Source of the DNA: Nymphaea colorata
Lineage: Eukaryota > Streptophyta > Magnoliopsida > Nymphaeales > Nymphaeaceae
DNA: 64,000 nucleotides
Reading direction: 5' to 3'
NCBI RefSeq assembly: GCF_008831285.2
Contig: NC_045146.1
Coordinates: 3,872,001-3,936,000, forward strand
Made by a program: the position numbers and the translations under genes. The notes under the pieces are model-generated. The model was not told the DNA's origin, made no database searches, and was given only the letters and a program-made list of their open reading frames with translations. Shown here in pieces: positions 11,131 to 57,753 of the stretch (positions within the stretch are counted from its first letter, which is position 1; each line of letters starts with the position of its first letter).

Positions 11131-11232
11131 TTCCATGAATATGCCCCAAAGTTGGAGTAGATTGATGGCATGCTTGAACAAGTGTCCCATAGATCTGCCT
11201 GAAAGTTAGGATAGATTCATGGCACACTTCAA
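11131..11232. repeat. Imperfect tandem duplication, about 60-bp unit
   Basis: The series GTTGGAGTAGATT, ATGGCATGCTTGAACAAG and TGTCCCATAGATCT is repeated at once as GTTAGGATAGATT, ATGGCACACTTCAACAAG and TGTCCCATGAATCT. No function is apparent. Confidence 0.6.
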
Positions 11233-12831: not shown

Positions 12832-12841
12832 GAGAGAGACA

Positions 12842-13045
12842 GAGACTCCTGTCGGGATGAAACTTTGCTTTGTAAATACAAGTCTTATCCATGTTACAAA
12901 ACATCAACATGACAAAAACTATGGCAAAATTATCATACTGCGAGAGAGAGTCCTGTTGGGACAAAACTTCGCTTTGTAAATACAAATCTTATCCATGTTA
13001 CAAATATTTACAAAACATCAATATAACAAAAACTATGACAAAAGT
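12842..13045. repeat. Imperfect tandem duplication of about 110 bp in the TOL 3' flank
   Basis: Two adjacent units share CTTTGTAAATACAA, CTTATCCATGTTACAAA, CATCAA and AACAAAAACTATG in the same order; the second has a small internal duplication of the TTACAAA word. The (GA)n tract at 12808-12846 abuts it. It lies within 330 bp of the TOL stop codon, so it may be transcribed as 3' UTR. Confidence 0.65.
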
Positions 13046-13165
13046 TTCAAGTATGACTCGCAAATCTGCAGGAACATCTAACGGGATACAATCTAATCCA
13101 AAGGCTAGCATGCAGAACAAAATCTATACAGTAAACGCTATGAAACCAACAAATAATGCATGAAC

Positions 13166-13871
13166 TCAAGAAGAAGTTTGATTAATACATGCACCATTAC
13201 AAGCTGATGATTGGTTTGATGCATGTGATGATTCTGTCTTTTGTTGGAATGCCGCATCCACCTCTTGTGACAAAGATTGAAGGGCCAACACTGTGTCTTC
13301 TGAGCTCACATCATTGTGTGATTCCTGCAACTTGTCTTCTGCATAATATGGAGGGACTCTGTTCCAGTAGAGTGGCTGAGAAGGAACAAGCATTGGTATG
13401 AAACTTTTTTCTTTCAATTCCCATGGGGGAGGTGGATAGGCAAATGGATTTGAAAGTGATGCCTGTGAGAACAAATTTTGTGGTGGTCGACCGTCAGACA
13501 CACCCGAGAAGGAAGCACTCTGTGGTAGATCATCCCGTGCCCAAAGCACCATATGATTATTACTAGGCAACTTCCAAGAATGCATTTGCAACTGCTCTGG
13601 TAAATAATGTTGCAGCACTTCAGTTGCAGTATAGTCTGGTTTCTGCTCACAAACTGGAGTTGCTTGCATATGCAACTCACACCTGCTTCTTGCGTAGTCA
13701 ACTGGATCAATATTTCTACCATGACAGTTTCTGCTCAGTGGAGGCTGTTCAACAACCACCAACTCCATGGTTCCAGCACTAGCTGATATTTGTGAACTTA
13801 TATGGGCCAATGAAGCTTGACTACTTGCTGCCTTGTCACTTCTATATGGGGTACTTTGTGCCATGGAATGC
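13166..13871 (-). CDS. TOL exon 10 (C-terminal proline-rich tail and stop)
   Basis: The acceptor is TTTTCAG|GCATTCC. The 706-nt exon encodes a Gln/Ser/Pro-rich tail with [13 protein letters not shown] and stops at 13168-13166. The tail is typical of class TOL6/TOL9 proteins; YPPPPW may serve as a protein-binding motif. Confidence 0.92.
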
Positions 13872-16800
13872 CTGAAAATTTCACATTTTCATAAGAAACA
13901 TATGACAGGAGTACAATCTTATCTGCATAAATGCTTAGCTTCAGTACGGCAAAGTAAAAAACAAAAAAACATCAACATTCTCACCTTAGAACAATTTCAA
14001 AAACAGTATATCTGTCTAAAAACAATTCAAAACACCAGTTTCCCGTTTCTCCTTTGGTGTATTTCCAACTTAATAATACATATTCCAATCTTCCGCACCC
14101 AATTCCAGTAACATTTTGGAACAAAGATATCAACCAAGGCAGTTTATCCTTTTCAACACCGCCAAGAGGCAGCAGCCCTCTCTAAAAGGAGAAGCAAGCC
14201 TAAACAGCCAAAATATCAAAGTAACCAAGCACAGGAGTACCTATTTTGGGAATGTCTAGTTTCAAAGTCTTTAAATGTGTAAGTCACCAATCCCAACTTC
14301 AAGACTGAACATGTAATGTATTATCACGTCAGTCTACCAGTGACATTCCTACTGAAACATATACTCAAGGGTAGGTGCAAAGTAGATAACGTCAAAACAG
14401 CTATATATTGTTGGTAGCATACTAAGTTGTCAAAAATCCAGAACTGGACATGTGTCAGATAAGACACCTAAAGAAGACCATTCAGTCTGAGTCAGTCCAA
14501 GTTAGTTGACTAAAAATTAGTCAAGAAGTCTGAAAACCAGAATATTTCAAGTGATAAAAGTAAAAAAGATGAAATATCATTATGAATCAAGTAAACCACA
14601 TAGTTCAGCCATCTTTCCATCAAGACAGCAGACCAGTGCCATCCATTATAAATGTGCTTGGTACTTTTATGGAATGTATGGTTGATTGCAATTTAAATAG
14701 CTCTCTTGTTAGCATTGCAATGTTTTAATGGCTCTTCAATGACCAAGTCCATGTCTTTAAGAAGACTTCTTAATCTTAACTATGTGTTCTCCACAGTCCA
14801 CAGTAGTAATTGCCATAGCTCAACACACACTGTAGCGATGAATGACAAAGAGATTTGTTGTTTTTTTTACATCTCCAAGAGAAAAGGGAAGATCCTAAAA
14901 AAACAAAAACCAGTGTAGGATCCTGGTTATTTAGGTTCCCGTCATCCCTTCCCCCCAAAAAAAATTAGATCTAATGGAGATGATGTAAGTAAAAATCATC
15001 CATTTGTATTATTCTTGACATTTCAAACTATGCAGCTTGTTCACCATGTAAACACAAGTAAGAACATGTTAGAGCTGCCTTGCAAAGTGTGATTGAAATA
15101 CATGATACGGCTCCAATTAGCTTGATATGAAGTCAGATTGTCCAGCAATTTTCAATATCCATATCAGATAGTTGGTTCTTCATAGTCTGTGAAACACTAA
15201 AACTTAAGCTTGCAGAGACCCAAAAAAATGAGAGAGAGAGAGAGAGGGAGAGGCTGATTTAGAGAGAGAGAGAGAGAGAGAGAGAGATAGGGAAAGAGGG
15301 TTTTCAGCCAGGAAGAAGAGAGATAGAGTTACCTGCATAGACCTGGACCACCATGATGAAAGAGAGAGGAGTACATCTTCAAGGCGACAGGAGGAGAGAG
15401 AGATATGGGGATAAAGGATTAGGGTCAAAACCCTTTGCCCACTTTTCAAACTATTAAAATTCTTTACTTTATAAAATTTCTCTAACCCCTTCTATATTAT
15501 ATATATTACAAACAAGGATTTAAATTTTTAAATAAATGTTAGTAAAACTTGTATATATACATGTGTGTGTGTGTGTGTGTGTATATATACACACACACAC
15601 ACCCCCCTTGCCATACCCCCTACCCACATTTTCTAACATTATCGTTTCCATACGGCCATACCTAAATCACAGTACCCATACCCGAACTCATACCCTCACC
15701 CATGCAACTTAGTCCGAGATACATGATCTTTCGATAATGTTATAAGCAAACTTAGTCTGAGATAGAACGTAACAGTGATGTGAATAAGCCACTTCAATTT
15801 CAAGAAAGAAAGTTAAAAAAACCCAAACTAGACACTCCAATGTATTCAAGAAATCCTTTTATCAGACTGAATGTCTTTATCACTTCCAATGACAATCATA
15901 TATGCATATCATTGTCGTGCAACAAAAGAACAATAAAACTTGTGTGTGTTCTTTCAGCCGAAAAGGTTTGAGCGCATATAAAGTTTTCCTTAACAAAAGG
16001 GTTTTAACCTCATGCATGATCATTCTGGAAGGAGGATCCAAATACATGACAGTTAAGGTTTTTAATAGTTGTTGGGCAAGAAAAGCAAAGTTCTCACAAT
16101 AATCAATTCCCATCATCTCCAAAGTACCCCTTAGAAACTAACCTAGGTTACAACTTTTTGAAGGTACAATACTTTTGGTTTTGACCCTAAAAATCAATCT
16201 AACCCAATAGTTTTCTTGCCTAGAGGAAGCGATTGAATTCCTCACTTTTATTGTTCTTATGGGCAAGGAGTTCAAGATTTATGGCCTCAACCCATTGTTG
16301 GTGTTGCTTGATTCATGATACGAGGGAGGTTTAGGGTGAAAGTGGACAGCTACAACACACGATTACTATCTAGGGGAAAAAGATTCATAAGAAACAGATT
16401 GTTGAGGAGCTCTAGTGCTCCTAGTGGACTTTCTAAAAGGAGAGGGGGTTCTTATAGTTCATTGTAAAAAATGGTTCATTTTTCTCTGCTATTAGTTTCA
16501 CATGTATTCAAATCATTTGTGGGACTAAGGTGAGGACATCATCGCTCTCAAAAAGGAATTCATCATTCTCAAAAACATCATGTGAACAAGAAGGAAGTAG
16601 ATCAGAGTAGAATGCACATTCATCCTTGTTCTTGGATTTTTACTTGTTCCAAAACCACTTTCATTTTCAACAAAGATGACATTTCTTAAAACAGACAATC
16701 TGTCGTTTTCTGATCATAACATTTGTACCATTTTTTGGTTTCAGGTGACATTTATACCCTTTTTTGGTTTCTCAATCTTCTAAGAACGCACACTGGATAC

Positions 16801-19800
16801 AGTTTTAATGTCTTGCAGTAAGTAGAGTTTTAGTAGTTTCTGTATATGTTTGTTCTTTCTTTCAGCAAGTCCATTTTGTTGCATTGTTTTTGTGCACGAT
16901 CTTTGATTGACGAATTCTGTTGTCTTCCTATGTTCTGAATTCCTTAGGCAGATTTTCTCCTCTAAAGTCAGTTCATAGAGTCCCTATATTGGTCTAGCTG
17001 GATTTTAACATACTATGAACTATTTTGACACTTAAATTCAAGTTTGAGAAAATAATCCAAGAGTATATAGAAAAATCATCAATAAATATTACATAATACG
17101 AATATCCTACTTTAGGTACTAGAAGAGCAGGACTTGAAACATCAGAATTCATGATCCAAAGGGCTTTTTAACACAAAAAGTTCTAGCTGGAAAAACATTT
17201 TCATTTTCTCCATGATACAATCTTTACAAGTAACACTGTTACTGCAGAATTCTTTCAAGAAATAAATACAGGAATACAAGGCCTCCCAAGTTCCAATGCT
17301 AAAATTTTCTAATTTTTGATGCCAAACATTCAAATGACTTTTTTGGTCAGTTTACAAGATGAAGACTTTGAGAGGTCCAAAAAAGTACTTGTAATAAAGA
17401 TAACCTCTTCTAGAACCTTCCTTAATTGGTGAAACACAAAGCTTTGATGGAAAAAATATTATACCCATGATAGTAATTTGGGCAACAGATAACCAATTAA
17501 AGTTCAATTCTGCAATGCACATAATATTAAGAATTTTACAAGACTTGTACTTTTCAAAGTCCGTAAAACTACATCCCTTCTAATTTTAAGAAGTGTGCCA
17601 ATAACCATTGAAATAAAAACAAGATAGGATAATCATACCTAGTGGAGAAATAGAATGGCATCTTTTGGTATGGATTAGTTGCCCCTTATGAGAGGTTAAA
17701 GAGCCTCCATGAGTTGCCAAGGGACATGGATCCAATTTTTGCTGATTTTTCTTTCGCAACCTCATGAGATTCTGCAAACAGTGACTCTCTCTTCTTTGAA
17801 AAGTTCTTCTTCTTTAAGTTTAGGACATTTTGGCTTCATATTTCTCACTTCTCCACAATGACCCTAAGTAATTCTGTTTGATCAATCATAATATTGTCTA
17901 AAGTGAGAAGGTTTATATGTTGTAACATTTAAACCAAGTCTTGTGGTAGCTACAACGATACTATCATTCTTGGCTTTAAGATTACAGATGCTATTCTCCT
18001 CCATAGAGAGCCTGCGAGAGCCTCTTGCATTGAAAGAACATGCTCCCTTTGAAGGACAGATGTCCAAAGCCCAACAAATTCGGATGCAAGAATTATCATA
18101 ACTTTGTAAGATTTTTCATCTTCCAATTGTTGATGGCAAAGAGCACTATTGGAAAGGTCATGCCAATTTAGTCCACAAAGAACAAATTCATATCAAAGTT
18201 GGGTGAGAAATCCAAGATATTTCTTAGTAGTTTTATCTCCTTGTGCATATTCATCATTCTTTCTTGAAGATTACATTTATAAGCAACATCCTTTATGGTA
18301 TGACTGTCTTTAAGATAAACCCATGAGCTCAGCAAATTTTGCACTTGTGGTCAACTCCATTTAAAAATCACATGACTGTGAAAAGTGACTATAACAGTCA
18401 CAAAGAATACATATAATACCAAAAAGACACTAAGGCCAAGTGAAGAAGAGTAATACTCATTCAATAAACAATATAAAGGCTGTAAAACACAGCTTATCCT
18501 TTACAAAGACTGTTACAAGCAATGTTATCCGTATCGTACGATACGCACGCGTACGTATCGTATAGGTTGAAGAAACCTATACGATACATGTTCAATACAC
18601 GATACGCGTGCGTATCGTACCCGTATCGGCCGTATCGTACGATACGGGGCCTGTATCGTACGATACGGGCGATACACCCCCGTATCGTACGATACGAGAG
18701 AAAACATAAAATTCTTTATTTTTTAAAAGTTTAAACACTCCTTCCTCTCTCTCTTCTTGTATTTAAAGACTCCAATAGACATAGGAGGGAGAAGTTTTGC
18801 ATATTTTCATAAAAATTAACCGATGATTCATCGATTTGGGAGATATCATCGTTGAATCATGAAATATGATAACTGTATGTTTGAACTTATAAAATTCTGA
18901 TGTAATCTAAGTCCTAAAACTCCAAGACTTAAGACTCTCAGTCCTCAAATTTTATAAAATTTTCAAGTTTAAAATTGTGATAGATGCTTATTATGTTAAT
19001 TTGAATATTTGATTTCTTATTTTTGAATGTGTTGTTGATAGTATACACATGAATGTTCCTTATGTATGATGATCTTTTTTATATTTGAATACATTTTTTA
19101 TTTTTCTTGATTTCTGATTTTTTGTTCATTGTTTTCAGATTTCTGAGAATTTTTGTCTATTTTTTCTGATTTTTAAATATTTTTTAAAATTAAAAAATTA
19201 ATTTTACGATACGTTACGCTACGTTTACGATACGTTACGATACGGCGTATAGGTCGGCCCGACCGATACGCGATACGCTACGCCTTTTATAACATTGGTT
19301 ACAAGGATATTTATAAGAGAGAATAAGAAGAGATGAGCTAAACTAGCCGTTGGGCTAGTTCCAACAGCTCTTAATAGAGCTGTTGGAACTGCCAACGGCT
19401 AGTTTGGCAGAAATAATAAAAAAATAAAAAATAAAAAATAAAGAGAAAAGAAAGAAATAAACTAATTCCTAACTAATCCTAAACTAGCTCTTAACTAAGA
19501 TAATACCTAATTAAGAGATAACAACAATAAGAAATCATATTTCTTAACACCCCCCCTTAAACTTACGGTGCTATCACCGAAAGTTTATCTAAAAGAAAGT
19601 TGAATCTGGGAGAACATAGAGGCTTTGTGAAGAAATCAGCCAGCTGGAACTCGGAGGAGACATATGGAAGTTTGATAGTCTTCTTCAAAAATTCTTCACG
19701 AACATAGTGACAGTCCATTTCTATATGCTTTGTTCGTTCATGGAATGTTTGATTCTTGGCAATGTAGATAGAACTTTTGTTGTCGCAGCATAAATCAGTG

Positions 19801-22800
19801 GGTTCTTCTATCTTTATTCCCATATCAAGGAGCATTTGGCGAAGCCAGACAATTTCCATAGTTGTAGAAGCCATGGCTCGATATTCAGCTTCAGTAGAGG
19901 ATAGTGAGACTTTCTGTTGCTTTTTGCATTTCCATGAGATGAGTGATTCTCCTAGAAAAACACAAAATCCAGTAGTTGAGTGTCTATCATTAGGATCTCC
20001 TCCCCAATCAGCATCAGTATAAGCAATCAAGTTCAAGGAGGAAGAGGAAGACATAAAAACTCCCTTGTTTATTGTTCCCTTAATATATCTGATGATACGA
20101 AGAACAGCTCCCATATGAACGGTTGATGGAGCATGTTGAAATTGACTCACAGTATGAACTGCATGAGCAATGTCAGGCCGAGTGATGCTAAAGTACATCA
20201 AGGATCCCACAAGTTGTCGGTAAGGAGTGGGATTGGCAAGTGGAACTCCATCATCAATCTTCATCTTGCTTCCTACTGCTTCAGGAATTTCTGTGACCTT
20301 ATCATCTGTTATGCCTGATTTAGCAATGATCTCTGCAGCAAACTTAGTTTGTGACAAAAAATATCCTCTAGTAGAATATGCAACCTCAATACCCAAGAAT
20401 TACGTTAGAAAACCTAAATCTTTCATTTCAAAAGTTTCTTGTAGTAATTTCTTACATTCTCTAATACCTTCCTTATCACTACCTGTAATGATCATATCAT
20501 CAACATACAGTAGAAGAATTATGATACCTGCAGTAGTATACTTAACAAACAAGGCAGTGTCAGTTAAGCAAGAATGAAACCCATAATCAGAAATAACAGA
20601 ATTAAAACGGTCAAACCAAGCTTTAGGAGCTTGCTTGAGGCCATAAAGAGCCTTCTTAAGTCTAAGAACTTTCCTTTGAGGAACAGACAACCCTGGTGGT
20701 ACTTCCATATAAACCTCTTCCATAAGATCCCCATTTAAAAAGGCATTTTTAACATCCATTTGATAGATATTCCAGTTTTTAACAGATGCTAAAGCAATAA
20801 GGGTCCTAACAGTAGTCATTCTAGCTACAGGGGCAAATGTTTCCTCATAGTCAATACCATATTCTTGAGTGTAACCTTTGGCAACAAGCCTTGATTTATA
20901 CCTTTCTAGGGATCCATCACTTTTAGTTTTCACCTTGTATACCCACTTGCATCCAATAGTCTTTTTCCCTATAGGTAAATCTTGTATTTCCCAAGTTTGG
21001 GCTTTTCTCAAGGCATCCAATTCTTCTAACATGGCATTCTTCCACTCAATATATTTGGATGCTTCATTAAAAGTAGAAGGTTCAAAGTGAGAGTGAATGA
21101 CATTAATTCTAGCTCTATGAGATGGAGTAAAAGTTTCATAAGACACAAACCTATTGGGTTGTCTTACATTTCTAGTGGATCTCCTAAGGTTTTCTCCACT
21201 TTGAGTTGGTTGGAGATCAATGGTCTCATGATGTTCTTCTTCACCAACTTCTTGTTGCCGGTTTCTTCTATGATAAGTGATTATATCCTTGGCCATTCTA
21301 CTATCATTACCACCAGTGTTGCTATCATCACCATCATGCATTTCATCATCACATTGAGAAAGGAACTTAAATAAAAAGGAATAATCATTATTGTGTTGTG
21401 ACTCCTCACAATTTTTAAAGCCACTTTCATCTTCACAAAACCTTACATTCCTTGAGACAATGATCTTGTCTTTAATTGAGTCATAACATTTGTAGCCTTT
21501 TTGGGTTTCAGAATAACCAATAAAAGCACATTCAATAACTTTTGAACTTAGCTTATCAGCCTTGTCATTAAGAACAAAACATTTGCATCCAAAAATACGA
21601 AGTCTATTGAAATCGGGTTCATACTTGAATAATTTTTCAAACGGAGTGGTATTATGTAAAACTTTTGAAGGCATTCTGTTTATAAGATAAACAGAGGCAA
21701 GTGCGGTTTCAGCCCAAAAGTTTTTAGGCACATTTTTGGAAATAAGAAGGGTTCTTGTTGTTTCAATTATGTGCCTATGTTTTCTTTCTGAAAGTCCATT
21801 TTGTTGAGGTGTTCTTGGACAAGATTTTTGGTGGACTATCCTATAGTTTTTCAAATATCTTTCGAACTCATTTGAAATGTATTCACCTCCGGAATCAGTC
21901 CTTAAAATTTTTAATTTAGCATTGAATTGTGTTTGTACTAACATGTGAAAATTTTTGAATATCTCAAAAACTTCGGATTTATATTTTAGGAAATATATCC
22001 AACAATAACTAGTGAAGTCATCAACAAAGATCACATAATATGATAGCCCTCCTTTTGACATGATAGGAGAGGGTCCCCATACATCGGAATGAACAAGCTC
22101 AAAAGGCAAAGAAGAGAAGAAGTTCCTTTCTCCAAAAGATAAAGATTTCATTTTTCCATGTATACAATCATTACATTTAAAATTTTCAATACAAATATTC
22201 TTGGTAGGGTTCATCATAGACAATTTTCTAACATTTGGATGACCTAATCTTTGGTGCCAAACATTGATGTCCACATTTTCAACATAGTGACAAAACTTTT
22301 CTTTGGGGATGCATAAATTGTCCATGTAGTAAAGGTCCCCTTTTCTAAAACCTTCCCCAATCAATCTCCCGGTTTGGTGATCCTGCACCAAACATTTATT
22401 TGATGAGAAAACAACATCAAATCCAAGATCTGAGATTTGTGACACAGAAAGTAAGTTAAGATTAAGTTTAGGAACATAACTAACTTTTGGAACAAAAAAT
22501 TTTTGTTTTCCAAATTCTTTTTCAAAATTCCCAATCCCTTTAACACTTAAAGAAGTTCCATCGGCGGTAACAACATTTGATTCTTTTCTTGTTCTTTCAA
22601 ATTTGGTCAAAGATGATATATTTGGTGTCACATGAAAAGATGCACCAGAATCTAAAAGCCAAGAAAACATACCAGGAGTGTTGGAGATGGATGCCGTTGT
22701 TGCTAGTGCTCCGGAATTTGACTCCTTGATCATGGGTTGAAGGGCTGTCATGATTTGATTCAACGTTGTGGATATAGATGATAGATCACATCCTTCATTT

Positions 22801-25800
22801 GTGACATTTGCGGCCTTTCTTTGATCAAATTGTCTAATGTTGTAATGTCCACCTTGAGGATATGAAATTCCCCGGTTGTGTTGCCCTCCTTGTGGATATG
22901 AAGTTCCTCCTTTGAGAAAATTTCCTCCAAGATTCTGCGATTGTCCTTCATTGTTGTTCAACTTTGGGCAACTAGGTCTTATGTGACCCGGTTCATGACA
23001 AAAGTGGCAAATAACTTTATATTCTCCTCTAATTTGATTCTTAAAGTGAGGAGGTCTAAAAGACTTGATGTTGTTTCCAGGTCTAGAGGCGGCTAAGGCT
23101 CTTTCTTCTTCTTGTTTTGAGACAAGAACACTATCTTTATCCATTTCTTTGGATAGTTTCATTCTAGTTTCCTCTCCACTTAGCTTTGTAAGAAGTTCAT
23201 GAATGAGTGGAGGAGAGGATGAAGAAAGAAGGGCTGACCTTATTTGTTCAAATTCGGGCCGTAGCCCTTGAAGGAATTGAAAAAACCGAAATTCATCTAT
23301 TTCATTTCTTCTAATCTCATGGCATTTGCAGTCCAACCCTAGTTCGGGACTTAGTTGATCTAACTCATTCCATACACTAGAGATTTCCATGAAAAATTCT
23401 CTAACATTTTTCTCTCCTTGCTTGATACTTTGGGCCTTTTGAATCAAAAGATACTTTCGGGCCATATCTTTTTGGGTGAACATTCCCTTAAGATATTCCC
23501 AAACTTCACTAGCCTTTTTATAATACATAGGATTTTGGGCAATTCTAGGTTCAATACTTCCATAAATCCATTCTTTAATCCTAGAATTTTTAGCTTCCCA
23601 ATCGTCTAATTTTTTGTAATATTCATTCATAGCATTTTGTCTTTCCACTCCATCTAGTTGTTTTTCAATCCCATTTTCTATTTTGGTCAACTTGAGAGTG
23701 GGAGGGATAGACGTACCTCTTATGAAGCCCCATAAATATTTTCCTTTGATATGCATTTCCAAACATTTTGCCCATAGTGTATAATTGGTTCCGTCAAGCT
23801 TGTATGGAGCATAATAGCTTCCTCCTTCAATTGAAACTTTGGAGTCTTCCATGAGAGCAATACTTGAAACAATAATCTCCAAGGAAGTCAAGAAAAAACT
23901 CTTCTAGAAATTTCACCAAACAGTTGGTGAGCAACCGCAGCAAAAAGGCCTTCAAAAAATTATATCCTCCAGCAAAGAATCTCTTCAATCAAACCAGCAA
24001 CATAAAATCTCAGCAGCAGCCTTTAACAAGCTTTGAGAATCAGCCCACTGGCTCTGATACCATGTGAAAAGTGACTATAACAGTCACAAAGAATACATAT
24101 AATACCAAAAAGGCACTAAGGCCAAGTGAAGAAGAGTAATACTCATTCAATAAACAATATAAAGGCTGTAAAACACAGCTTATCCTTTACAAAAACTGTT
24201 ACAAGGATATTTATAAGAGAGAATAAGAAGAGATGAGCTAAACTAGCCGTTGGGCTAGTTCCAACAGCTCTTAATAGAGCTGTTGGAACTGCCAACGGCT
24301 AGTTTGGCAGAAATAATAAAAAAATAAAAAATAAAAAATAAAGAGAAAAGAAAGAAATAAACTAAATCCTAAACTAATTCCTAACTAATCCTAAACTAGC
24401 TCTTAACTAAGATAATACCTAATTAAGAGATAACAACAATAAGAAATCATATTTCTTAACAATGACTTCATGGTAATTGGTTCTTCAAGCTTGCCACTTC
24501 TTTCCATGATCATGAATAGTTTTTCTCTTTTTCATTTCTTGAAAGTCTGTGACCTTGTAAGAATCAAACTGCATTCCCTTCTGGTTTCTCCAATAAAATT
24601 CTTTTAGCCTCTTTACACCATCATGGCATTCCATGATAGAGGCCCACGTAACATAGTTGTAGAAGCAAGGTTTGGGCAAGAAATGGTGGTAATATCCTCT
24701 TTTTCCATAATGAACACAAGAAGGAACCTAAAATGCTTGGAAAGAAAGGCCTAAAAGGACCATGACAAATCATGATAACAAGATCCTGAGGAGTCAGTGA
24801 ACTGGTTGTCCAACTAGTCCCTGGCAACTTCAAGCCAGTTTCTAGTTGCCAGACCACCAACCGTGCCAACTGGCTGACTGGTCAATGATTCGACAACCAA
24901 TGTAGTATTCATCATTGTAGTAGTACATGTTACGAGATAGAGAGAGAGGCGGCAAAAAGTTATCTATGCATTACGTGACCCTAATCTCTATTAAGAGATT
25001 AGGGTTAGGGAAAATTACAAGAGAAGTCCACTAAAAATAACAAAACATTTAAAGAGATCCTCCCTAACTTCCTAATATTTCAGAAACCCCTTTTTGTATC
25101 TTTAACACTCCCCCTCAAGCTGGAGCATATATATCAATCATGCTCAGCTTGTTACAACATCTCAGGAAATCGCCTATGGGAAGAGCTTTAGTGAGAATAT
25201 CTGTTGCCTGATCTTCTGAGGAGACATGAATAGTGCTAACAATTCCTCCTTGAACTAAGTCCCGAATATAGTGGCAATCCACTTCAATGTGTTTAGTCCT
25301 CTCATGGAAGACAGGATTGTTAGCGATATATGTAGCTGCCTTGTTGTCACAATACATCTTCATTGGGAGATTCACTGAGACATCCAACTCTACAAGTAGT
25401 GATCTAACCCACGACATTTCAGCCACAGTTTGAGCCATAGCCCTATATTCCGACTCAGCACTAGAACGAGCCACAACATTCTGCTTCTTGCTCCTCCAGG
25501 AAATAAGATTACTGCCCACAAAGACACAAAAACCGGTAGTAGACTTCCTATCATCTACAGATCCAGCATAATCAGCATCACTATACGCCTCGATGTCAAC
25601 ACATTCTCCTTTCTTGAACCATAGCCCCTTTCCCGGGGCTGATTTCAAGTATCTTACAATCATTAGAGCTGCATCCCAGTGAACTTTTCGGGGTTTTTCC
25701 ATGAATTGGCTCAACTTATTCACAGCAAAGCTAATGTCGGGATGAGTGACAGTCAAATATAACAGTTTCCCTATCAGAGATCTATAAGATCTAGAGTCAA

Positions 25801-28800
25801 ACGGCTCTGAGTCATCATCATGTATATGAATGCGAGGATTCATGGGAAGTGTGGCAGGTTTAGCCCCCAATAGTCCCGTTTCCTGTAGAAGATCAAGAGC
25901 ATATTTCATTTGAGACACTACAACTCCTTTATTACTACGAGCCACCTCAATACCAAGAAATAACGAAGTTGTCCAAGGTCTTTCGTAACAAAGTGTTGCT
26001 GTAAAAACTCCTTTGTTTGAGCTATCTCTTGATCATTTTCCCCTGTAAGAACAATATCATCCACGTAGACAATCAATATCACAAGTCCTGCTGAGCCTCG
26101 CTTGATAAACAATGAGTGATCAAGCTGGGATCGGCTAAATCCACACTTAGATAACACTTCAGTAAGCTTTTGGAACCATGCACGGGGACTCTGTTTGAGT
26201 CCATAAATAGCCTTCTTTAACTTGCATACCTTGGAACACTCCCCTTGTCGCTCAAAACCAGGTGGTTGCTGCATATAAACAACCTCAGAAAGGTCTCCAT
26301 ACAGAAAGACATTTTTGACATCCAATTGAAAAAGAGGCCACTCTCGTTGGACAGCAAGAGAGATAATCAAGCGAATAGTGCCCAACCGGGCCACAGGCGA
26401 AAAGGTCTCAAAGAAGTCAACACCATAAGTCTGAGTATACCCTTTTGCGACAAGACGAGCCTTGAACCTTTCAACTGACCCATCAGAATGATACTTGATG
26501 GTGAATACCCATCGTGAGCCAACCACATCACAGCATGTTGGGGGGTCTACCAAATCCCAAGTCTCCCGAGAAAGAAGAGCATCCATTTCCTCCTGCATAG
26601 CTTGTCGCCAACGTGGATCTAACAGGGCATGATGGTGCGAGGATGGGATAACATGACGAGATAAAGCTTGATCAAACTGTACTAAGTGTGTACTCAGATG
26701 AGCAGTAAAGACAGAATTAGATATAGGATGTAAGGTACACTGTCGCTTGCCCTTGCGAATAGCAATAGGGAGATCTGCTGCAGAATAGTCATCACTTAAA
26801 CCTGAGTTAGTCTTATCAGTAGAGCTTACCTCTTGAGACGATGCTGGTGGACGGTTGAGAGAGGGACCTAGACGACGAGTGTAAACCAACGGAGGCTCAA
26901 GAAAACGTTCATGTGACCTAGGTTGAGATGATGGAAATGACTCAAGTGACACTGGTGGAATAGGAAGAGGTATAGGTGCATGCATCTCAGATGAAGAGGG
27001 ACTTGACGGAGGGAAATAAGGACGAGACTCAAAGAAGGTAACATCCGCACTGATAATGTCTTTCTTGGTCAAGGGATCAAAGCATTTGTATCCCTTTTGA
27101 TTGGCTGAATAGCCAATAAATATACATTTGATGGCTTGGGCAGCAAGTTTGCTTTTGTTCGGGCCTAGGATATGTGCAAAGCAAGTGCATCCAAAAACTT
27201 TGGGAGGTAAATGAAATAATGAACGCCCTGGATATAGAATTTGTATTGGAATACGGTCTTAAATGGAGGAAGAGGGTAATCTATTAATGAGGTAACACGC
27301 ACTAAGGATAGCATCACCCCAAAAATAGGCAGGCATGTGAGAATGTAACATGAGGGTACGAGCTACGTTTAGGAGTTGCCGATGTTTGCGTTCGGCTACA
27401 CCATTCTGTTGGGACGTATGTGGACAAGTATATTGAGGTCGAATTCCATGGTCGGCATAAAACTGAAGTAGAATGGAAGACTTGAATTCAAGAGCATTAT
27501 CAGTGCGAATATTTTTGACAATGAATCCAAACTGAGTTTTTATTTCCTTGATAAATTTTTGAAGAATACATATGACTTCAGATCTTTCCCTTAACAAGAA
27601 AACCCAACTGACTCTAGTAAAATCATCAACTAGAACAAGATAATATCGAAAACATGATCGAAAAGGAACCCGACTAGGACCCCATACATCCACATGAATG
27701 AGATCAAAAGGACTCTGACTCGATGGACTCTGACTCGAAGGAAAGCTGCTCCGTGTATGCTTGCCCAACTGGCAGGCATCAATAAGAAGGACTCTGATGT
27801 AGGAATGTCTGGAAACATGCGACGAAGTTTTGGTACGGAAGGATGACCCAATCTGAGATGCCATTGGAAGGGAGAAGGCTTGGAAGGGACTGAAGATGCA
27901 GCAACATCAACTGGGATTGACAAAAAATAAAGGCCCTCACGCTCATGGCCGCCACCAATCATCTTCCCAGTTGGTAAGTCCTGAAAAGAACAAGAGTCAG
28001 ATTAAAAAATGACTTTACATTGTAAGTCGATAGCTAGCTGCTTCACAGATATCAAATTAACAGGAAACTGAGGTGCATATAGCACATGTGTAATAGTGCC
28101 TAAATGTGGAAGATAAATATCACCGCTACCCAAAACAGGGGACAACTTGCCATCAGCCAGCTTAACATACTGTGGTGTAGAAAATCTGACAAATGATGAA
28201 AAATTTTTTGGTTGATTACAACAATGTCTAGAAGCGCCCGAGTCTATCATCCATGTCATACCTGGATCAGCAGTAGGAGCACCAACAGAGAATGTTGAAT
28301 CTACAACAGCAGCATTGGTAGATGTAGAGGCAGATGTAGAGCCAGACCTCTGAGCAAGAACACGATCATATTCATCCTTACTTAGGTTATGAGAATATGA
28401 CATAGATATAGAATGATCAGTAGAAGACTCAACCATAGATATTGTTGCCTTTGAATGAGTTGCCTGGGATGAAGAAGGACCTCTGCTTGTGGTGATTCTA
28501 CCTCCACCACGTCCAGAGGAAACATTAGACCTGAGGTGAGGATGTTTGTCCCAACAACGGTCCTCTAGATGACCAATTTTGCCACAATAAGAGCACTGAA
28601 ATCTGCCACGTCCAGCACCACGGCCTGTACCACACTCCTTAGTGCCTCCAAAAGAACTAGGGCCCCGTCCTCCTGATATCACAAGTGCAGAGACTGGTAT
28701 GTCATGCGTAGTCTGAGAAAGAGTGGCTGCAAAACGACTCAGCCTATTATACGTGTTAGAATTTGAGACTTTGCCACAGAGTATTCTGAAGATGGGCCAG

Positions 28801-40800: not shown

Positions 40801-43800
40801 AACATAATGGCCCGGGTAACATTCAATAGATGACGATTTTTACGTTCAGCTATACCATTTTGAGGAGGGGTATAACTACAAGAGGTTTCATGAACAATAC
40901 CCTTGCCTTTCAAGAATTCATCAAGGGATTGGGAGACACATTCCCTTGCATTATCTGTACGGAAAGCTTGCACAGTAGTATGGAATTGAGTCTCAACAAA
41001 GGCAACAAAGTTTTTCACAACTGCTGGAACCTCACTACGTTCTCGCAACAAGTACACGAACGTACATCTAGAGTAATCATCAATAAGCGTCAAAAAATAA
41101 TGACAACCACCACACGTGGGTACTCCAGAAGGACCCCAAACATCGGAATGAACTAAGGCAAACGGATGAGTGGTTTTATTCAATGAAATAGGGTACGAAG
41201 CCCTGACATGTTTAGCCAATTGACACACTTCACAAGCGAAGGAGTCAATGGAGACAGAAGCAAACAAATGAGGAAACAACTTCTTTATTAACTGGAAGGG
41301 GAGATGTCCAAGACGCTCGTGCCATCGCAGAACAGTAGATCTATCGTTCACACCAGACAAGTGACCACTCGTGGCAGAAATCAACGCTGAAGCAACATGT
41401 ACCGGCAGCCTGTAGAGCCCATCAGTAACCGAACCAATCCCAATCTTCTTTCCCGTCACCAAGTCCTGCAGGGAACAGTGATCAGCAGAGAAAATCAGAT
41501 TACAGTTTAATTCTTTAGTAATACTGCTGACAGAGAGTAAGTTCACAGGAATATTTGGAACATGCAGGGCATTGTGGAGACGGTATTTGTTCAACAGGGA
41601 CAAGCTCCCTTTCCCAGCCACAGAGATAGAAGACCCATCTGCCATAGACACGCGTTGCTTGCCAGAGGAAAGTTGATATTCTTGAAAGAGTTTAGACTTT
41701 AGAGTCCCCTGTCATGTGGTGAGTGGCTCCACTATCAACAATCCAATCACCAAGAGAAGGGTTACCTTGATCAGTCGAGGCAACGAGGGCTTGGGCTAGC
41801 TGAGCCCCTTCAAACGTGGAGGACTCCTCAGGGGTAGTAGATAGGCGGCTGATGTACGCCTGTAGCTCCTTGAGTTGAGCAGGGGACAGCTTGGACTTTG
41901 CACCACTAGAAGAATTGCTCTGACTGGAATCAGACACAGAAGGGCTACGCTTGCCAGAGGGAGGACGACCTCTGACCAGTCTCTTCTCGGGATGAAGATC
42001 CCAACAGAAATCCACCGAATGCCCCAACTTGTTGCAATGAGTGCAATGCCGGGCAGGACGCTGCCCAGTCCCTGAGGCACGGCTGACAAAGGCAGAGGGG
42101 CCATGACCGGTGTCAAGATGCATCACCTGGCGACGTTGTTCTTCAGACTCAACTCGAGCATATACTTCCTCTATCCCTGGAATCTCATCACCATTAAGAA
42201 TCTGGCTACGAATAGACTCAAATTCATCCCGCAGGCCTCCCAGAAACAGAAACGTACGGTCCATCCATTCCTTTTCCCAGTAGAGGGAATGATCTGAACC
42301 GCACTTCCACTCATCAGTCACATGATAATCTAGCTCCTCCCATTTGGTCTTCAGGGCAGCATAAAAGGCAGCAACAGACAAATCACCCTGTGTCAAGGAG
42401 TAAATACTGCGTTTAATCTGATAGGTGCGCAGATGTCTCTTCTTGCGACCATACATCTTTGCAAGCACAGTCCACATATCAAAAGAGGTCGGCTTCCGCA
42501 GAATGAGAGGCTGGATATCAGAGGACACGGAGCTGATAATCCACACCTTCACTTGGCTGTCCTCCAACGCCCACGTCGCCCATTGAGGATCAGATTTGAT
42601 GGGCGCAGGTTTGTCGCCAGTGATGTAAGAGAGACGCCCACGGCTAGTAATCCCAATCTCGAGAGCGGCAGACCAAGATAGGTAATTGTCCTTGGTCAGA
42701 CGGATGGAGGTGACCTGGATCGGCACGTTCTCAGTCTTGGAGGCGCTGCCCACGTCAAGAACGGCATCTTTTTGAGTCCCCATCGCTTCTGCCATCACAA
42801 ACAAGCACACAGCAACAAGAGGCACAGCGGCGGGAATGAGGCAGCGGCGACGGAAGGCAGGCGCCGGCGCAACACAGAGGCCACCCACGGTGGCAGAAAC
42901 CAAGAACGGGCCGAACGGAGGACTGCGGAGGCGCAATAGAGGACGGCGGAACAAAGGACGACGGCGGAACAGAGGACGACGGCGGCGGAACAGAGGACGG
43001 CGGCGGCGGAACAGAGGACGGCGGCGGCAGAGCAGGGCGACGTCACAAGGGCAGCAGCGGCGCTGGAACTTCAACGGCGTCGGGCGACGAAAAAACTTGA
43101 CGATCCTCGGGAAAGAAACGCTTCTCCAACTTCGCTGTCTCTGATACCATGTAGAAACACGAACCACAAAGAGAGAGTAGAGAACGAACACACAATATAC
43201 GTGGAAAACCTCAGAAAGAGGTGAAAAACCACGGGGAAGCTCTGACCTAGGGGCTCACCGCAACCCTAGGAGAGAGAAAATTATATTTCACTTAATTCAA
43301 CACTTAAACATAAGTGACAATATAAAGAGGGAGAGAGGAGAAGCCGCCTAGGGTATCGAGCCCGCCTCGGTACCCGCGCCCCATAGAACCGGGTCCAGAT
43401 ATGGACCCGGTTCCCACAACAACATATTCTAACAGCTAAGTTGATTGCAGACTTGTTATCACAGTACATCTTCATAGGTCCTTCAATCTCTATTCCAATG
43501 TCAGTCAACAATATCTTCAACCATAATAACTCTGACACTCCCATAGCAACTGCCCTATATTCTGCCTCTGCACTGGATCTAGAGCAAACATCCTGTCTCT
43601 TGCTCCTCCATACAACAAGGTTTCCTCCCAAGTAGACACAGTACCCTGTAGTGGATCGTCTGGTATCACCACAACCTGCCCAATCCGCATCAGAATAGCC
43701 CTCGATTTCCACAATCTCTTGTTTCACATACAGGAGTCCCTTACCAGGATTTTTCTTCAGGTAGCATAGCACTCTGTCCACAGCCTTCAGATGTGCATCG

Positions 43801-46800
43801 GTTGGCGCATGCATGAATTGGCTCAAAACATTCACCGCAAAGGTGATATCAGGTCTCGTGAGGGTAAGATAAATTAGCTTCCCAACCAAACGTTGATATC
43901 TTCCCTTGTCTTCTTCACAGAGAGGCTCTCCATCTCTAAGACTCAACTTGTGCCCAGTGTCAAAAGGGGTAGGAGTAGGTCTACATCCCAATTTACCAGT
44001 TTCTTCCAGCAAATCTAATGTATATTTCCTTTGGTTTAGTACAAGACCAGTACTAGACCTAGCAACCTCCATACCAAGAAAATACCTTAGCTTGCCAAGA
44101 TCTTTGAGGTCGAATTCTGTAGCCAGTAACCCTTTTAGCTTGATAATCTCCTCCTCATCATCTCCAGTAACAATCATGTCATCTACGTAGACGAGCAGGA
44201 GAGTAACCCTGCTCTCCTTCTTCTTCACAAACAAAGTGTGATCTCCATTTCCTTGTTTGTATCCATGACGTATCATCACTCTTCTCAGTCGTTCAAACCA
44301 CGCTCTGGGCGATTGCTTAAGGCCATACAAGGCCTTTTTCAGCTTACAACACTTTTCTGGTTCTTCATATCCTGGAGGCATATGCATATATACTTCTTCT
44401 TCGAGGTCACCATTGAGGAATGCATTCTTAACATCCAGTTGATACATCTTCCACTCCTTCATCACAGCTAGGGATATAACCACCCTCACAGTCTTCATTT
44501 TCGCAACAGGAGCAAAGGTTTCCAAGTAATCAATTCCATATTTCTGGCTAAACCCCTTGGCCACAAGTCGAGCTTTATATCTTTCAACACTCCCATCTGG
44601 TTTGTACTTGACGGTATACACCCATTTGGATCCAACTAGGTGAGCGGCTTCAGGAATCTTCACCACTTCCCATGTCAAGTTTCTTCTTAGGGCATCTATT
44701 TCTTCTTTCATTGCATCAGCCCACTTGGAGTCACTTTGAGCTTCAGCGACAGTCCTGGGAATCACAGCCAAAGAGAGAGTAGAAACAAAACACTTGTAAT
44801 CTTTCCCAAGTCTGGAATAAGAAACAAAATTACCAATGGGGTGTTGAGTACATGACCAGACACCCTTTCTCAGGGCAATGGGAAGATCGTCATTCTTCTT
44901 TTCAACTTCATCATGAGTCTCCACGGTCTCCTTGGTAGGACTTGGTTCATCCAGGGAAGGAGTGGCATTGGGATTGGAAGTAGATCTAGCATCACAAGTC
45001 ATCACCTCTGTCCGAGTACCTCGTCTAGAGTAGAACTGTCCAAACAACTGAGGGCCTTCCTTCTCAATGCTATTGTCACCCCTTTCCTCCTTCTCAGGCA
45101 CATCAACAGTATTAAGTGATTCTGCTTTCTTGTAGTCCAAAAAATCTATAAACTGAAGTTCTTATCTCTGAGAATACTCTTCCCTGCCCACAGACTGCTC
45201 CCCCTGAAGAGGATTCGCACCAAAGTAAGAGGCATGTTCCAAGAAGGTAACATCCCTCGTAACATAAGCTCGACCAGTAATAGGATCAATACATTTGTAT
45301 CCTTTTTGCGTAGGGGAGTATCCAACAAAGACACCTTTGATAGACCTAGGATCAAGTTTCTTGACATTTGGACTGTGATCATGGATAAAACATACACAAC
45401 CAAAAACACGAGGAGGAAGAGGAAATGGTGGACGACTGCCAGGAAGCAACGAGTGGGGAGTCCTACCATTCAAAACACGACTGGGCATGCGATTAATAAG
45501 ATAGGCACTAGTAAGAACTGCATCACCCCAATAGTGTTTAGGAAGATTTCTCTGAAACAAAAGAGCCCTGGTGACATTAAGAAGTTGACGATTTTTCCTT
45601 TCAGCTACCCCATTTTGAGGGGGGGTGTAACTACAGGATGTCTCGTGAACAATCCCCCGTTGTCTAAGAAACTCCTCAACAGGCTGACACATGTACTCAC
45701 GGGCATTATCGGACCTGAAAGTTTTAACATTCGCACCATACTGGGTATGCACAAGAAGAATAAATGTCTCTATGATGCGAGGAACCTCGCTGCGGTCTTT
45801 TAACAAGTATATAAATGTAGCATGAGAGAAATCATCAATGAAAGTGATAAAATACTGAAAACCTTGACGGGTATGAATGCCCGAAGGTCCCCATACATCA
45901 GAGTGAATCAGGGAAAAAGCTTCATTAGCACAACTAGAAGAAAGAGGGTACGAAGCCCTCACATGTTTGGCAAACTGACAAACATCACAAGAAATGGAAG
46001 ACAAATCAAAGGAGGAACACAAGTCTGAAAACAAATGTTTCAAAATCCCAAAAGGTAAATGCCCAAAACGTTCATGCCAGTACATAAAAGACTGAAGACA
46101 ATCTTCTCTTCTCTTATCTGTCTTGCGGATCGCTGTCAACAGAGCAGTAGCCACACGTATGGGAAGACGATATAATCCATCAGAAGCTAAACCAATCCCA
46201 ATCCTCTTCCCTGTCACCAAGTCCTGCAAAACACAACGATCGGCAGAGAATATAAGTTCACAATTCAATTCTTTAGTAAGTCTACTAACTGATAAGAGAT
46301 TTAAAGGAAACTGGGGAACATGTAAAGCGCCATGCACATGAAATTTGTCCAACAAGGACAGAGTGTCTTCGCCTGCCACACAGGTAGAGGAACCATCTGC
46401 AAGAGAAACACGTTCCTTTCCCGAGGACAACTTATGCTCATGAAACAATTTTGGATTACCTGTCATGTGATGAGTAGCACCACTATCGACAATCCATTCC
46501 CCCACAGAAGAGTTACCTTGATTGCCAATAACCGCGAGAGCATGATTAGCTGTAGTTCCCTCTGAGGTCTCAATCTTGTTGACATCGATCCTGCCCAAAT
46601 AAGCCCTTAGTTCACGAAGCTGGTCAGCAGAAATGGAGATTTTTTCTCCACTGGATGCTTGCACCTCAGACACAGGCGTTCTCCCAATCGAAGATCTCCC
46701 TTTGTTTCCCTTCTTTTCTGGATGAAGATCCCAACAATAATCCACGGTGTGACCTGTCTTCTTGCAGTGAGTGCACCGGCGAAGGGATCTAGACGGGCCG

Positions 46801-49800
46801 CCAGGACCACGACTCACGAGAGCGGATCTCTCGTTATAGGGCACAAGTTCCTTCTTCCCGTCTTTTGTAACAAGCCTCCTCTGTTCTTCCGCTTCAATAC
46901 AGGAGTACACATCTTCAATACTGGACACCTCCCCTGAATTTAGAATCTGGCTTCGAACACCTTCAAACTCATCATTTAAACCTGCTAAAAATAGGAACAC
47001 CCTGTTTCCCCATTCATGAGCAACATAGAGCGCCTGATCATGGGGACAATGCCAAGGAATATCAGAATGATAGTCAAGCTCTTCCCACTTGGCTTTCAAA
47101 GCCCCATAGTACTCTGCAACAGACGAGTTCCCTTGTCGAATGCCATAGACTGTCTTCATTACTTGGTAAGTACGAATTGCGGTCTTCTTTTGGCCATACA
47201 TTTGCTCGAGGACCACCCACATGTCTCTAGCAGTCTTCTTTCGAAGGATAAGGGGCTGAATATCGGCGGAGACAGAATTGACAATCCAAGTTTTCACTTG
47301 ATTATCCTCAAGAAACCAAGTATGCCACACATCACTTGTTCTTGCTGGTTCGGGGTTGCTCCCATCAATATAGGCCATGCGACCACGGCCAGCAATCCCC
47401 ATAGTCATAGCAGGCGACCACGAGAAATAATTCTCCTTGGTGAGGCGAAGAGTGATGACCTGCATGGGAACATTCTCAGTTCTAAAAGCCCCTATTTCAG
47501 TGGGATTGGTGTTGACGGTTGACGAGGAAGAGGCTACCATAATCACAGACCAGTCTAGCTACGGGAGAAGCCCAGTAGGCAGCAAGGGCAGCAGGGAGCA
47601 ACAGCACCAATCCTTCGGAAGACAGGAAGGGCAGCAGAGAGCAGGCAACGGACAAAACGGAGAACGCCTAAACCTCACCGGCGGAAGAGACAGCAACAGA
47701 GAGGCAGCGCTGGAGGAAAAAACGAGGCAGAGCGGCGCGGCGCTGGGCGGAAACAGACCGCCGGAACCAGGCAGAGCGGCGCACCGGCGGAAGCAGACCA
47801 CCGGAACCAGGCAGAGCGGCGCGGCGCTGGGCGGAAATAAACCGCCGGAACCAGGCAGAGTGGCGCGGTGCCGAAAAAAAAGGCACGGCGGTGGGCGATG
47901 CGTCGGTTGACAGAGAGGAACACCGCTGGACAGGGCGTCGCTGGGCAGGCCGACGCTGGGCGGAAGCGGCTGAACAGGAACGGCGCTGATCAGGGCGTCG
48001 CTGGGCCGGTCGTCGCTAGGCGGAGACGGCGGAATCCTGAGCGGCGCTGATCAGGGCGGCGCTGGGCGGAGACGGCGGCGGGGCGACAGACGAAGCCTGT
48101 GCAGGCGTCGGGCGAAGCTCAGGCACGAGCGTCGGGCACGGGCGATGAACAGTGCCGGGCGAGACGATGAACAGTGTCGGGCGAGTCAATGAACAGTGTC
48201 GGGCGAATCCTCCTCCAACACGGGCAAAAGACAAACCAGAAACGCCGGAACTTCACGGCTCTGATACCATGTAGAAATACGAACAAGAAGAAGACGAAGA
48301 GAAACAATGATCACGATGTAACGTGGAAAACCCTCAACATGAGGGAGAAAAAACCACGAATGAGGAGGAGTTGGTGCCCACTAGCAACCAGACTCTCTCT
48401 CTCTTAAGATTATCATTAACACTTAAGGATTAGGGTTACATGACTTAAGTAGAGCCCAAAACGGGCTACAAGGCGGGTCGGGTATGGATCCGGACCCGAA
48501 ACACACAATCTATCAACAGTATGCAATAGCAGAGATAATCTGTGGTTGTGCACTATTCATGATTCATGACATGATAATATTATTATCTTCCTTTCACGTA
48601 CTATATTTTCCACTCTTCACCACATGCTCATTTTCTTCTATAACATGCTCCTTATGATCTCTAATCATAGATATCATAAACACAAGGGACCAAATCTCAT
48701 AATTAGATCCATCTAACTTTATAGTAGAACCATGCTAAAAGGGATCGTCCGTGTTCTTATGCTCATACTGCATCTTTGTCATGTCTTCATCAGCCATAAT
48801 GAGAGACTGGACAATATGACCTTAATCTGGTCAAACTTTGAGAAAATCAAAAGTATAGCGCACAACAATCAACTTGAGAGGATTTAGGAAGCACAATTTT
48901 TTTAGCATCAATAAAAGTACTAAAAAAATATCTATCAACTTGTTGTTCAATAAATCAGTCCACCAATCACAGCAATTAACTTGAGAGGATCTAGGCAGGA
49001 GAATTTTTCAGCATTAGTAAAAGTACTCAAAAAAATATCTATCAACTTGTTGTTCAGTAAATAAGTCCATCAAACTCCCATGTAGTAGACTTCATACCAT
49101 TGCTTACTAGAATCCACATATGCATATAAAAAAGGCAATCAATCTGATAAGAGTATACCCAACTTGCATCCACTTTTCCAGTCAGCTAAAAAAAAAAATC
49201 TAATAAGAATATGGTCCACGTTCAGCCACTCTTCCACAAGCCCAGATCTGATTTAGAACTTGCCAACACAACTCCCACACAGTTGCTCACGCTCCACTAC
49301 ATCCATGTCGGGAACCTAATCACACACACCTTTCACGTGTGATTAGGTTCCCCTCCCACGCTGCTCCATTATCTCCCGATCAGCAAAGAAAAGAGAGAAA
49401 GGAAGGGTAGTGGAAGAAAAGAGGTGGAAAAAGATGATATAGAGAAGAGAAGAAGAGGTCGCCGGAAAGTCACGTCAGCCGCCAGCGGAGAAGGGTGGAT
49501 ATCACCTTCTCTGATACCATGTTAGAGCTGGCAGTCATAGAGAGAGAGAAATTACTTAATTAACTAACCCTAATCCCAATAATAAAGAGACTAGGGTAGC
49601 GGTAGAGACTTACAAATAACATCAACCAAAAATAGAAAAATGTTTAAAGAGAACTCCTAACTATGAAATATTGCAAAGGACCACCTAGAAACTTAAAGTC
49701 TTCTAATTTAACAATATAAAAACAGAAAAATATAGAAAATACAAAGGGAAAAAGTAAAATACAAGAGGAACAAATGTTATACAAAAAGGGAAAATGTATA

Positions 49801-50317
49801 TACAAAAATAAATATATGTACATAAATAGTTACACCACATGACTAATCACACAATATAACTATAAACAAAGAGATTACATACATGAATCTGACAGATGAC
49901 AAGATGCATTTAAAAAAAAAAAAAGTAAATTTAATGACTTCTTATCGTGCTCTTTTTTTTGCCCTTTTATTCCTGCGCAAAAGCTCTTTACAAAAGGGCA
50001 TTGTTGCAATTAAAAAAAAATTAAGAATGAATTCTCAAATGTGTTGAAACTTGAAAGTACGTAAAGAGAGGCAATTTCGAGCATGCCATTCCTTTTAGCA
50101 GCCAAAGAGGAACTATAAGAACTGTTTATGACTTTTAGTGTTTAGACCTTTCATTTTTTTAGAAAAGCTGCCAAGATTTTCCCAAGAAAAATAACTTTGC
50201 CGAAAAATAACCAAGAAAAACCTTGTCAATTGTCATTAAAACCACAAACATGACAGACACCAAAGCATATGAGAATCTGGCTGCCAAGAAACTTGCTCAA
50301 GCTAGTTGACTTTCTTC

Positions 50318-50359
<42 letters not shown>

Positions 50360-53300
50360 AAATAAGGACATTGGTTAAGGAATGGCAAATGACAGACTTT
50401 CATTGTTTCTGGATAACTCGGATAAATGCAGTAACCCACAAAAATGAGCTACCTATAGTTGGTTAATACACAATCTGCATAAGAAGCACCTCCTTCTTGA
50501 TCATAAAATACTGACACAAAAATAGCTATATCAAATAGGCACTGCCATTACATGATTTCTAGTGATATCATCAAATAATGAGATTGATGGAGAGGAGTCT
50601 GATGGAATAATTTATATGAAACAGAGTTTCACAGAGAATTACCCGCGGGAAGGTAGAGTAAATAAATAAATAAATAAATATACAAAAAATAAAAAAAAAT
50701 CAAAACACTATATATATATAGATATATATAGTGTTTTGATTTTTTGTTTTTTTAGTCAAGAATAGACCTTGACAAGTTAGATTAGATGTCGGTTGGCTGG
50801 TCCAATATCTAGATCTGTCACTTCTTCATGTGTGCATTGCAGGTTCATTTCATTTATGATTTTCTAAGCATATTAAGTGAATAACATTGTTACTTTCTGC
50901 AGGTCGTCTTTGTCTCTGTGCATGCTCCTTTGAGAGACTTTATGTGCCATCTAATTTGTCTCCAGTAAGCTCATTAGTTTATGACTTTTGCCCGTGGTTT
51001 GTCCTCCTATTTGAGCTGGTGAAACTTTTTCACAGTTTTCACATGGAGAATGCCATCATCATTTTGCTTCTACTTTGGAAAAGCCAAGTTCATCGTATGT
51101 ATTTTTGACCATGCAAGCCAGATTATTTCAATATAATATTCAAACCCTAATAATTTTAGCCAGTAACTTGACCAAGACAAACTGGTTCATCCTCATAAAT
51201 CACCAGCTAAGTTTTCCAGAGAGAACAAGCAATAGAAAAGAAACAGCTTAGACCTACAATTTTGGATTCAGTCCTTAGGTTCTAAGGCCATGATGTTCAA
51301 GGAACATTAACAAGCTATGTAACACAGACTCTTCAAAACAGTTGCCAGTGTATGTGCTGGTGCGACAATATAGAATTTGCTTTCTTTTTCATTAAATAAT
51401 TGACAGAATTATGACTTTTTAATTGTTCTTGTACTTTGTAGACAAATATATATGTGTGTGTGCACATGTGCTGGAACCTTGTCCACAGATGTTTTCTGGC
51501 ATTGCCCAGATTTACTCTTAAAAAAAAAAATTCTAAATGTGACATTTAAGGCAATGAATTGGTAAATAAGCATTTTTATCTATCAGACGTGGATCTATTT
51601 AAACATTCCTACAAACATTACAAATTTGAAATAGTCTAACACAGTACATTTCTACCTGATGGTCACGAGGATTTATAGCATCCAATATCTCCTCCAAAAC
51701 AGATGTTACATTATAAGCTGACTTCATATCTACCGAGCTGCAAGAGTTTTGAAATGTTAGCACAGTTGCAACTCTTTCATATCAAAAAGTGGAGGATCTA
51801 AATAAGATATCATTAACTCAGATAAGGAAACGATATTATACTACCGCCGGTTGTTTGCATCAAATATTCTTGTTTCGTCAAGCTGCCTAGCAACATGAAC
51901 TGGTATGCCATAAACAACCTGAGGAGTTGGTGCAGATAACTGTCTTGCAGGAGGAGTAATTATAGGGACTGAATCTCCTGATAATTGAGGAAACACAAGC
52001 CCAGACATCTACAGTGGGAAAAAAGAAAATGTTTAAAATACTCAAATAATGGGAAGATTAAATTGGATTTGCAATCCATCTTTATTCATTACTTTTCAAA
52101 GGCCATGTTGATATCATCAATAGTGAATTAGGAAGTGCAAGACAATTGTTGCTCCACCTCATGATACGAAAGTGCGTCTAAATTTGTTTATGCCAATATT
52201 CATGCTGCTTTGTTTCATACACGTGGCTGTATCAGTACCAACGGATATAATATTTTCCAATACTCCTTGTTTCACACTCAACCAAGAAATTAGGTGTATT
52301 CATCCATTATTTCTCAATAACAGCTGTTTCAATAACGGAGAAAGATGTATTCTTCTGTATATTTCCAATCTTTTATATCATTTTGCAACAAAACAACTTC
52401 TCATTTCACCAGAAAATTTTTTTGGACCTTTGCCAATAGCATCAATCACTTATACCCTGGCAGATGTGGCAGATGTGGGACAAAGAACACAGAGCCACAA
52501 AGTTGCCCCTCCACCCCCAAAACTGAAAATAAGATCTACATTAAAAGAAGGATAAGTCATAAGAGAGAAAATTACTTGCCTCCACTCCTAAACGTCGAAC
52601 CTCGGGAGTTGGAACTCTTAACGACTTTTCACTCCTGGGACATTGATAACTAGGCCCAAGGGTTGTCTCACATTTTGATTTGTGATTGGATTGTGCATTT
52701 TACTTGAGAACACAATTACTTTCCATGTATGCCATGGGATGATGCAAGAGGAGGCCCCCAAAACATAACTTAAGATAAAGAGAGAAAGAGTTTGTGTAAT
52801 CCCCTGAAGATTTACTTGTCATTCTTAAACTACTATCTCTAAAATAAATTTTGATACTGAGTTTCTCAGTAATATCTCTTTACCCAATTAACCATAAAGC
52901 ATTTTCAAGATAATCAGGAGACGAGGAAACCTAAGAGTGCTTTTAAAAATGCAAGCCAAAATGTGTATATGTGAAGGAGGAATTGCTTAAAAGAATGAGA
53001 TCCCCTTAAAAGAATCCATCTCTCAAAATCAGGAAGATACTGTGTATCTTAGACTGGTTTCCCAAGGTAGAATCACGACCTGATAAATGAAAGATTGATC
53101 CATTTAATAAAGAGATCAATCCATTTAATAAGAGAACATATGTAACACGGAGACCTTTCAAATGCAGAAGTACCCGTGTTGATGCAACACGACAAGGGTA
53201 GGGATGTGGCAGTGGACATGGCTTGCGTGCATCTTTGACTGTGCCAGGTGGGTCAACACACCCATGGCCGAATCCAATTATGGACCTGTTTTTTCCTTTT

Positions 53301-57753: not shown

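Follow-up and report, generated by a model that had tools for sequence, protein, structure and literature searches.

The window, that is, the whole 64,000-nt stretch of Nymphaea colorata DNA that was analysed, contains a ten-exon coding gene on the minus strand (57753..13166), defined by an open frame, splice sites and VHS and GAT domains. In our spliced model, exons 1-5 are located at 57753-57647, 56821-56743, 55973-55875, 54264-54151 and 52008-51845, and exons 6-10 at 51737-51656, 33785-33700, 32271-32065, 31937-31737 and 13871-13166. Joined together, they give 1,845 nt, coding for 614 residues followed by one terminal stop, with no internal stops, while the other two frames of the same sequence carry 35 and 49 stops. 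All nine introns are GT-AG, and the phases are consistent throughout. With stops at 4.7% of triplets, as measured in intron 6, the chance of 614 codons without a stop is 1.3e-13. A preliminary description of this DNA had proposed a stop-free frame of ten exons and 1845 nt with matching phases, a coding share of about 4% of the span and two introns of about 17.9 kb. The exon model proved exact to the base, the coding share was computed as 4.14%, and the introns in question measure 17,870 bp (intron 6, 33786..51655, phase 0, within the GAT domain) and 17,865 bp (intron 9, 13872..31736, separating the VHS+GAT part from the C-terminal exon). Directly beyond the stop codon lies a tandem pair of units of about 100 bp, 79.6% alike (12838-13049).

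Pfam places a VHS domain at residues 4-115 (1.9e-26; 93 bits vs a cutoff of 29.8), followed by a GAT domain at residues 199-268 (1.2e-11; 45.1 bits vs a cutoff of 31). The latter is interrupted by intron 6 after residue 215, in line with the split proposed earlier, and likewise by intron 7 after residue 243.67. A motif scan, run with what we take to be the clathrin-box pattern, gave a loose match at residue 417, outside VHS, and another within VHS at residue 61. Plant TOLs are characterised by clathrin-binding motifs after GAT, and beyond the loose match at 417 no clear one was seen in this protein. When the first 313 residues were compared with solved structures, 12 sequences matched at 0.01, the best being chain 9rdc_C (162.5 bits), with HRS (78.5 bits) and TOM1 (74.3 bits) next. 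Structure 9RDC is described as the N. benthamiana TOL9a domain, there termed ENTH, bound to a Phytophthora effector (PMC13240173). The VHS part of our protein is identical to this NbTOL9a domain at 75 of 144 positions, and residue 6 of the one aligns with residue 6 of the other, which fits the start codon of our model. Because of the VHS and GAT domains and the 75/144 identity to Nicotiana TOL9a, the gene is, judged from its sequence, a TOL (TOM1-like) gene, the identity already suggested for it. The order of domains, VHS (ENTH in the NbTOL9a paper) and then GAT, is also that described for plant TOLs, which act as early ESCRT adaptors and number nine in Arabidopsis, where they are partly redundant (PMC12051064). 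Exon 10 had no match in a plasmid collection, as expected for a plant gene.

The two long introns are filled by LTR retrotransposons, partly nested, as had been claimed. We resolved them by self-comparison of the window in pieces, element ends and protein matches. Six insertions are supported: five (A, B, C, D and E) by an LTR pair, a target duplication and a priming site, and the sixth (F) purely by protein matches. LTR pairs of the TG..CA form and priming sites are present in all five of the former, and the 5-bp target duplications are perfect in four of them (B, C, D and E) and agree at 4/5 bases in A. The priming sites, with 11 or 12 matches of 12, adjoin the 5' LTR in every case, always on the minus strand, and two further sites with a weaker match (10/12) occur elsewhere, at 2561 and 13137. 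On the plus strand, there was neither a priming site with at least 11 matches nor a significant element protein match. The minus-strand priming sites and element proteins thus put all six elements in the sense of the gene (two-sided chance 0.03). We did not build on this orientation as a special signal; intronic transposable elements in rice are reported without a strong orientation bias (PMC7145194). Integrase precedes reverse transcriptase (RVT_2) in A, B and E, as seen by Pfam, while D was classed from RVT_2 and gag pieces only and C was placed by tblastn matches to D.

In intron 6, the Copia elements form a three-deep nest of 15,161 bp, with B within A within C. The outer one, C (34553..49713, minus strand), is the oldest dated; it has LTRs at 34553-34745 and 49520-49713, the target duplication ATATA/ATATA and a pol broken in several frames. 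Element A (37732..48518, minus strand; LTRs 37732-37980 and 48270-48518; target duplication ATATG/GTATG) sits in the gag of C, which matches residues 1-93 of the D gag on one side of A and residues 103-185 on the other. Element B (38200..43434, minus strand) carries LTRs at 38200-38484 and 43150-43434 and the duplication GCTAA/GCTAA. With element C taken out, intron 6 would be about 2.7 kb long. Between the gag and the 5' LTR of C, we also observed a tandemly duplicated 107-bp unit (48861-49073; 86-87% alike).

The LTR-element content of intron 9 comprises 5,289 bp, 6,085 bp and a relic no shorter than about 3.5 kb. Element D (24928..30216, minus strand) has identical LTRs (24928-25107 and 30037-30216), the duplication GTACA/GTACA and broken reading frames. 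Element E (18377..24461, minus strand; duplication ATGAC/ATGAC) has its 5' LTR at 24063-24461 and a 3' LTR split by an insert into 18377-18519 and 19298-19549. This 778-bp insert (18520..19297, no strand assigned) is included in the 6,085-bp span of E and must be younger than E, since it is sited in its 3' LTR. Its ends read CAATGTTAT/ATAACATTG, with 9 inverted bases identical and 13 of the first 20, and it is flanked by an 8-bp duplication, GTTACAAG twice; from these features, we take it to be hAT-like. The decayed Copia relic F covers at least 14516..18004 (minus strand) and is recognised by matches, spread over several frames, to the proteins of E. Neither its LTRs (low-stringency search, three stretches) nor its ends were found, and the stretch 24462-24927, between E and D, gave no significant gag match by which E and D could be placed inside F.

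The LTRs differ at 18/194 positions in C, 3/249 in A, 3/286 in B and 0/182 in D. For E, the count is 2/387 plus a 12-column gap; counting its two LTR pieces separately gives 2/143 and 0/252, with eight positions shared between them. Intervals on the LTR distances use slightly trimmed lengths. At substitution rates of 7e-9 to 1.3e-8, general background values, the insertion of C dates to about 4-7 million years ago and those of A, B, D and E to less than about 1 million. By LTR differences, B is no older than A, which is consistent with the nesting, although the intervals overlap widely. The insertions of A, B, D and E look recent, C is the only old dated insertion, and F is a decayed relic.

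What an intact frame can prove was gauged by simulations in which the coding sequence accumulated neutral mutations amounting to half the LTR distance of the element in question; splice-site hits were lethal, and indels were set at 0.08 per substitution (2 gap events vs 26 substitutions in the LTRs). At the point value for C, the frame stayed intact in 0/4,000 and 0/6,000 neutral runs. It survived in 15/6,000 when the lower bound of the interval was used, in 29/6,000 with coding DNA mutating at half the LTR rate, and in 291/6,000 with both combined. Neutral survival at the point values (6,000 runs each) was 27% for A, 32% for B and 58% for E, and for D, taken at 3/180, 17% (6,000 runs), and a second round reproduced this. 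With distances set to the upper ends of their intervals, the intact frames of 6,000 numbered 144 for A (2%), 227 for B (4%), 845 for E (14%) and 651 for D (11%). Overall, we conclude that the TOL gene has very probably been constrained for a large part of the period since C inserted, and that the strong evidence of past constraint comes from this old element only. Such sizeable survival after A, B, D and E means that an intact frame cannot separate a working gene from a recently silenced one. The statement in the preliminary description that the gene had stayed functional through at least six insertions is well supported as regards the number of insertions and the constraint since C, but not as regards the young A, B, D and E, after which about 17-58% of neutral frames survive at the point values.

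Transposon-filled introns in expressed plant genes are already well described, as far as the cited accounts go, and the TOL locus is a good example of them; keeping in mind this record, our finding is less surprising. Large, repeat-rich introns are reported from grapevine, cycad, redwood and rice (PMC3058033, PMC9023351, PMC8728005, PMC7145194). In grapevine, repeats make up more than 80% of large introns; Copia exceeds Gypsy about 6.5-fold, and near-identical LTR pairs are numerous (PMC3058033). Rice has 5,809 heterochromatic introns (PMC7145194). In cycad, the mean intron length is about 30.8 kb, and expression was demonstrated both for its longest gene and for the one that harbours its longest intron (PMC9023351); annotated redwood introns reach 1.95 Mb (PMC8728005). 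Next to these, the 17.9-kb TOL introns are modest. The closest parallels are Arabidopsis RPP7/COPIA-R7 and IBM1, where a retroelement or heterochromatin lies in a long intron and a mechanism keeps transcripts full-length; in RPP7, the 5' LTR of the intronic Copia element can end the transcript (PMC7529245). Unlike these two genes as described there, TOL bears a far larger element load, in introns 6 and 9. Long-read RNA of Arabidopsis also ties transposable elements to alternative transcript ends (PMC10241880). Among the matches listed in our literature searches, no title on TOL gene structure concerned TOL introns, and none on nested insertions in introns concerned the present one. What the locus adds is a clear worked example of one gene with insertions of very different age, together with a quantitative bound on the conclusions that an intact frame allows.

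Taken together, this TOL gene, which would encode an early ESCRT adaptor, is probably still working despite its Copia-filled introns. Its protein would, by the role of the family, bind ubiquitin and sort plasma-membrane cargo for destruction. Two of its introns have acquired Copia elements, namely the old C, the recent-looking A, B, D and E and the decayed F; the whole span would be transcribed and both 17.9-kb introns spliced out, and the element DNA would be silenced as intronic heterochromatin, with poly(A) sites held down as in RPP7/COPIA-R7 and IBM1. Genes with heterochromatic introns under EDM2/IBM2 control are characterised by H3K9me2/CHG methylation of the intron, on which their choice of poly(A) site depends, and the TOL gene would be a candidate for this class. 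We favour a working gene because of the open frame, the GT-AG borders in 9/9 introns, the VHS and GAT domains, the NbTOL9a match and the frame kept since C, and because published expressed genes have introns that are rich in transposable elements or longer. Speaking against it, the four young sense insertions may have ended expression and left the frame unmarked, and 291 of 6,000 neutral frames do survive when the low interval end for C is combined with the half coding rate.

The first of these objections leads to a gene silenced recently, in which full-length expression stopped with the insertion of one of the young elements (A, B, D or E), too recently for the frame to have decayed, and other TOLs cover for the loss. 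Neutral survival of 27% (A), 32% (B), 58% (E) and 17% (D at 3/180) agrees with such a scenario, as does the partial redundancy of Arabidopsis TOLs (PMC12051064). However, survival drops to 2-14% once the upper interval ends are used, the frame was evidently preserved after C had inserted, and expression is compatible with transposon-rich introns in the accounts of rice, grapevine and cycads; we therefore regard recent silencing as unlikely. It is still more improbable that the assembled allele is atypical, with the gene being shorter in most individuals because the youngest insertions are polymorphic or the nest is partly mis-assembled. LTRs that differ at 0/182 (D) and 2/387 (E) positions would permit insertions so recent that they are still polymorphic. 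Mis-assembly, however, fits poorly with a window free of N, with target duplications that follow the pattern of true insertions (perfect in 4/5 elements, 4/5 bases in A, plus the 8-bp copy flanking the hAT-like insert) and with the C gag, which is interrupted by A and picks up in order on its far side. The duplications and the resuming gag argue against mis-assembly only, not against polymorphism.

If silencing failed in the working gene that we prefer, the product would depend on the intron. Failure at intron 6 is predicted to yield 215 residues plus 18 intron-encoded ones, a VHS-only protein as anticipated before. At intron 9, however, the predicted product has 379 residues plus 14 and consists of VHS+GAT without the tail, and the earlier VHS-only claim does not extend to it. 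The strong internal termination signals that had been ascribed to these introns were not confirmed by the sequence, as sense AATAAA occurs in 0/11 LTR pieces. Plant poly(A) signals are loose, so the absence of AATAAA from the LTRs neither proves nor excludes poly(A) sites. It is tempting, if very doubtful, to suppose that the sense Copia LTRs serve as poly(A) switches at two domain borders, with element silencing setting the ratio of full-length TOL. On the same far-fetched supposition, use of a site in intron 6 would give the VHS-only form and use of one in intron 9 the VHS+GAT form without the tail. Were this true, transposon chromatin would tune membrane-protein turnover, and if LTRs set isoform ratios, control of the RPP7/IBM1 type would be extended to an ESCRT adaptor.

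Elsewhere in the window, protein-kinase pieces (Pfam PK_Tyr_Ser-Thr) occur on the plus strand at 64-543 and 1280-1909, and they are probably exons of one receptor-like kinase (64-1909) cut by the window edge. Finally, a 102-bp self-complementary stretch (74.5%) lies inside a 54-bp tandem repeat at 11157-11282.
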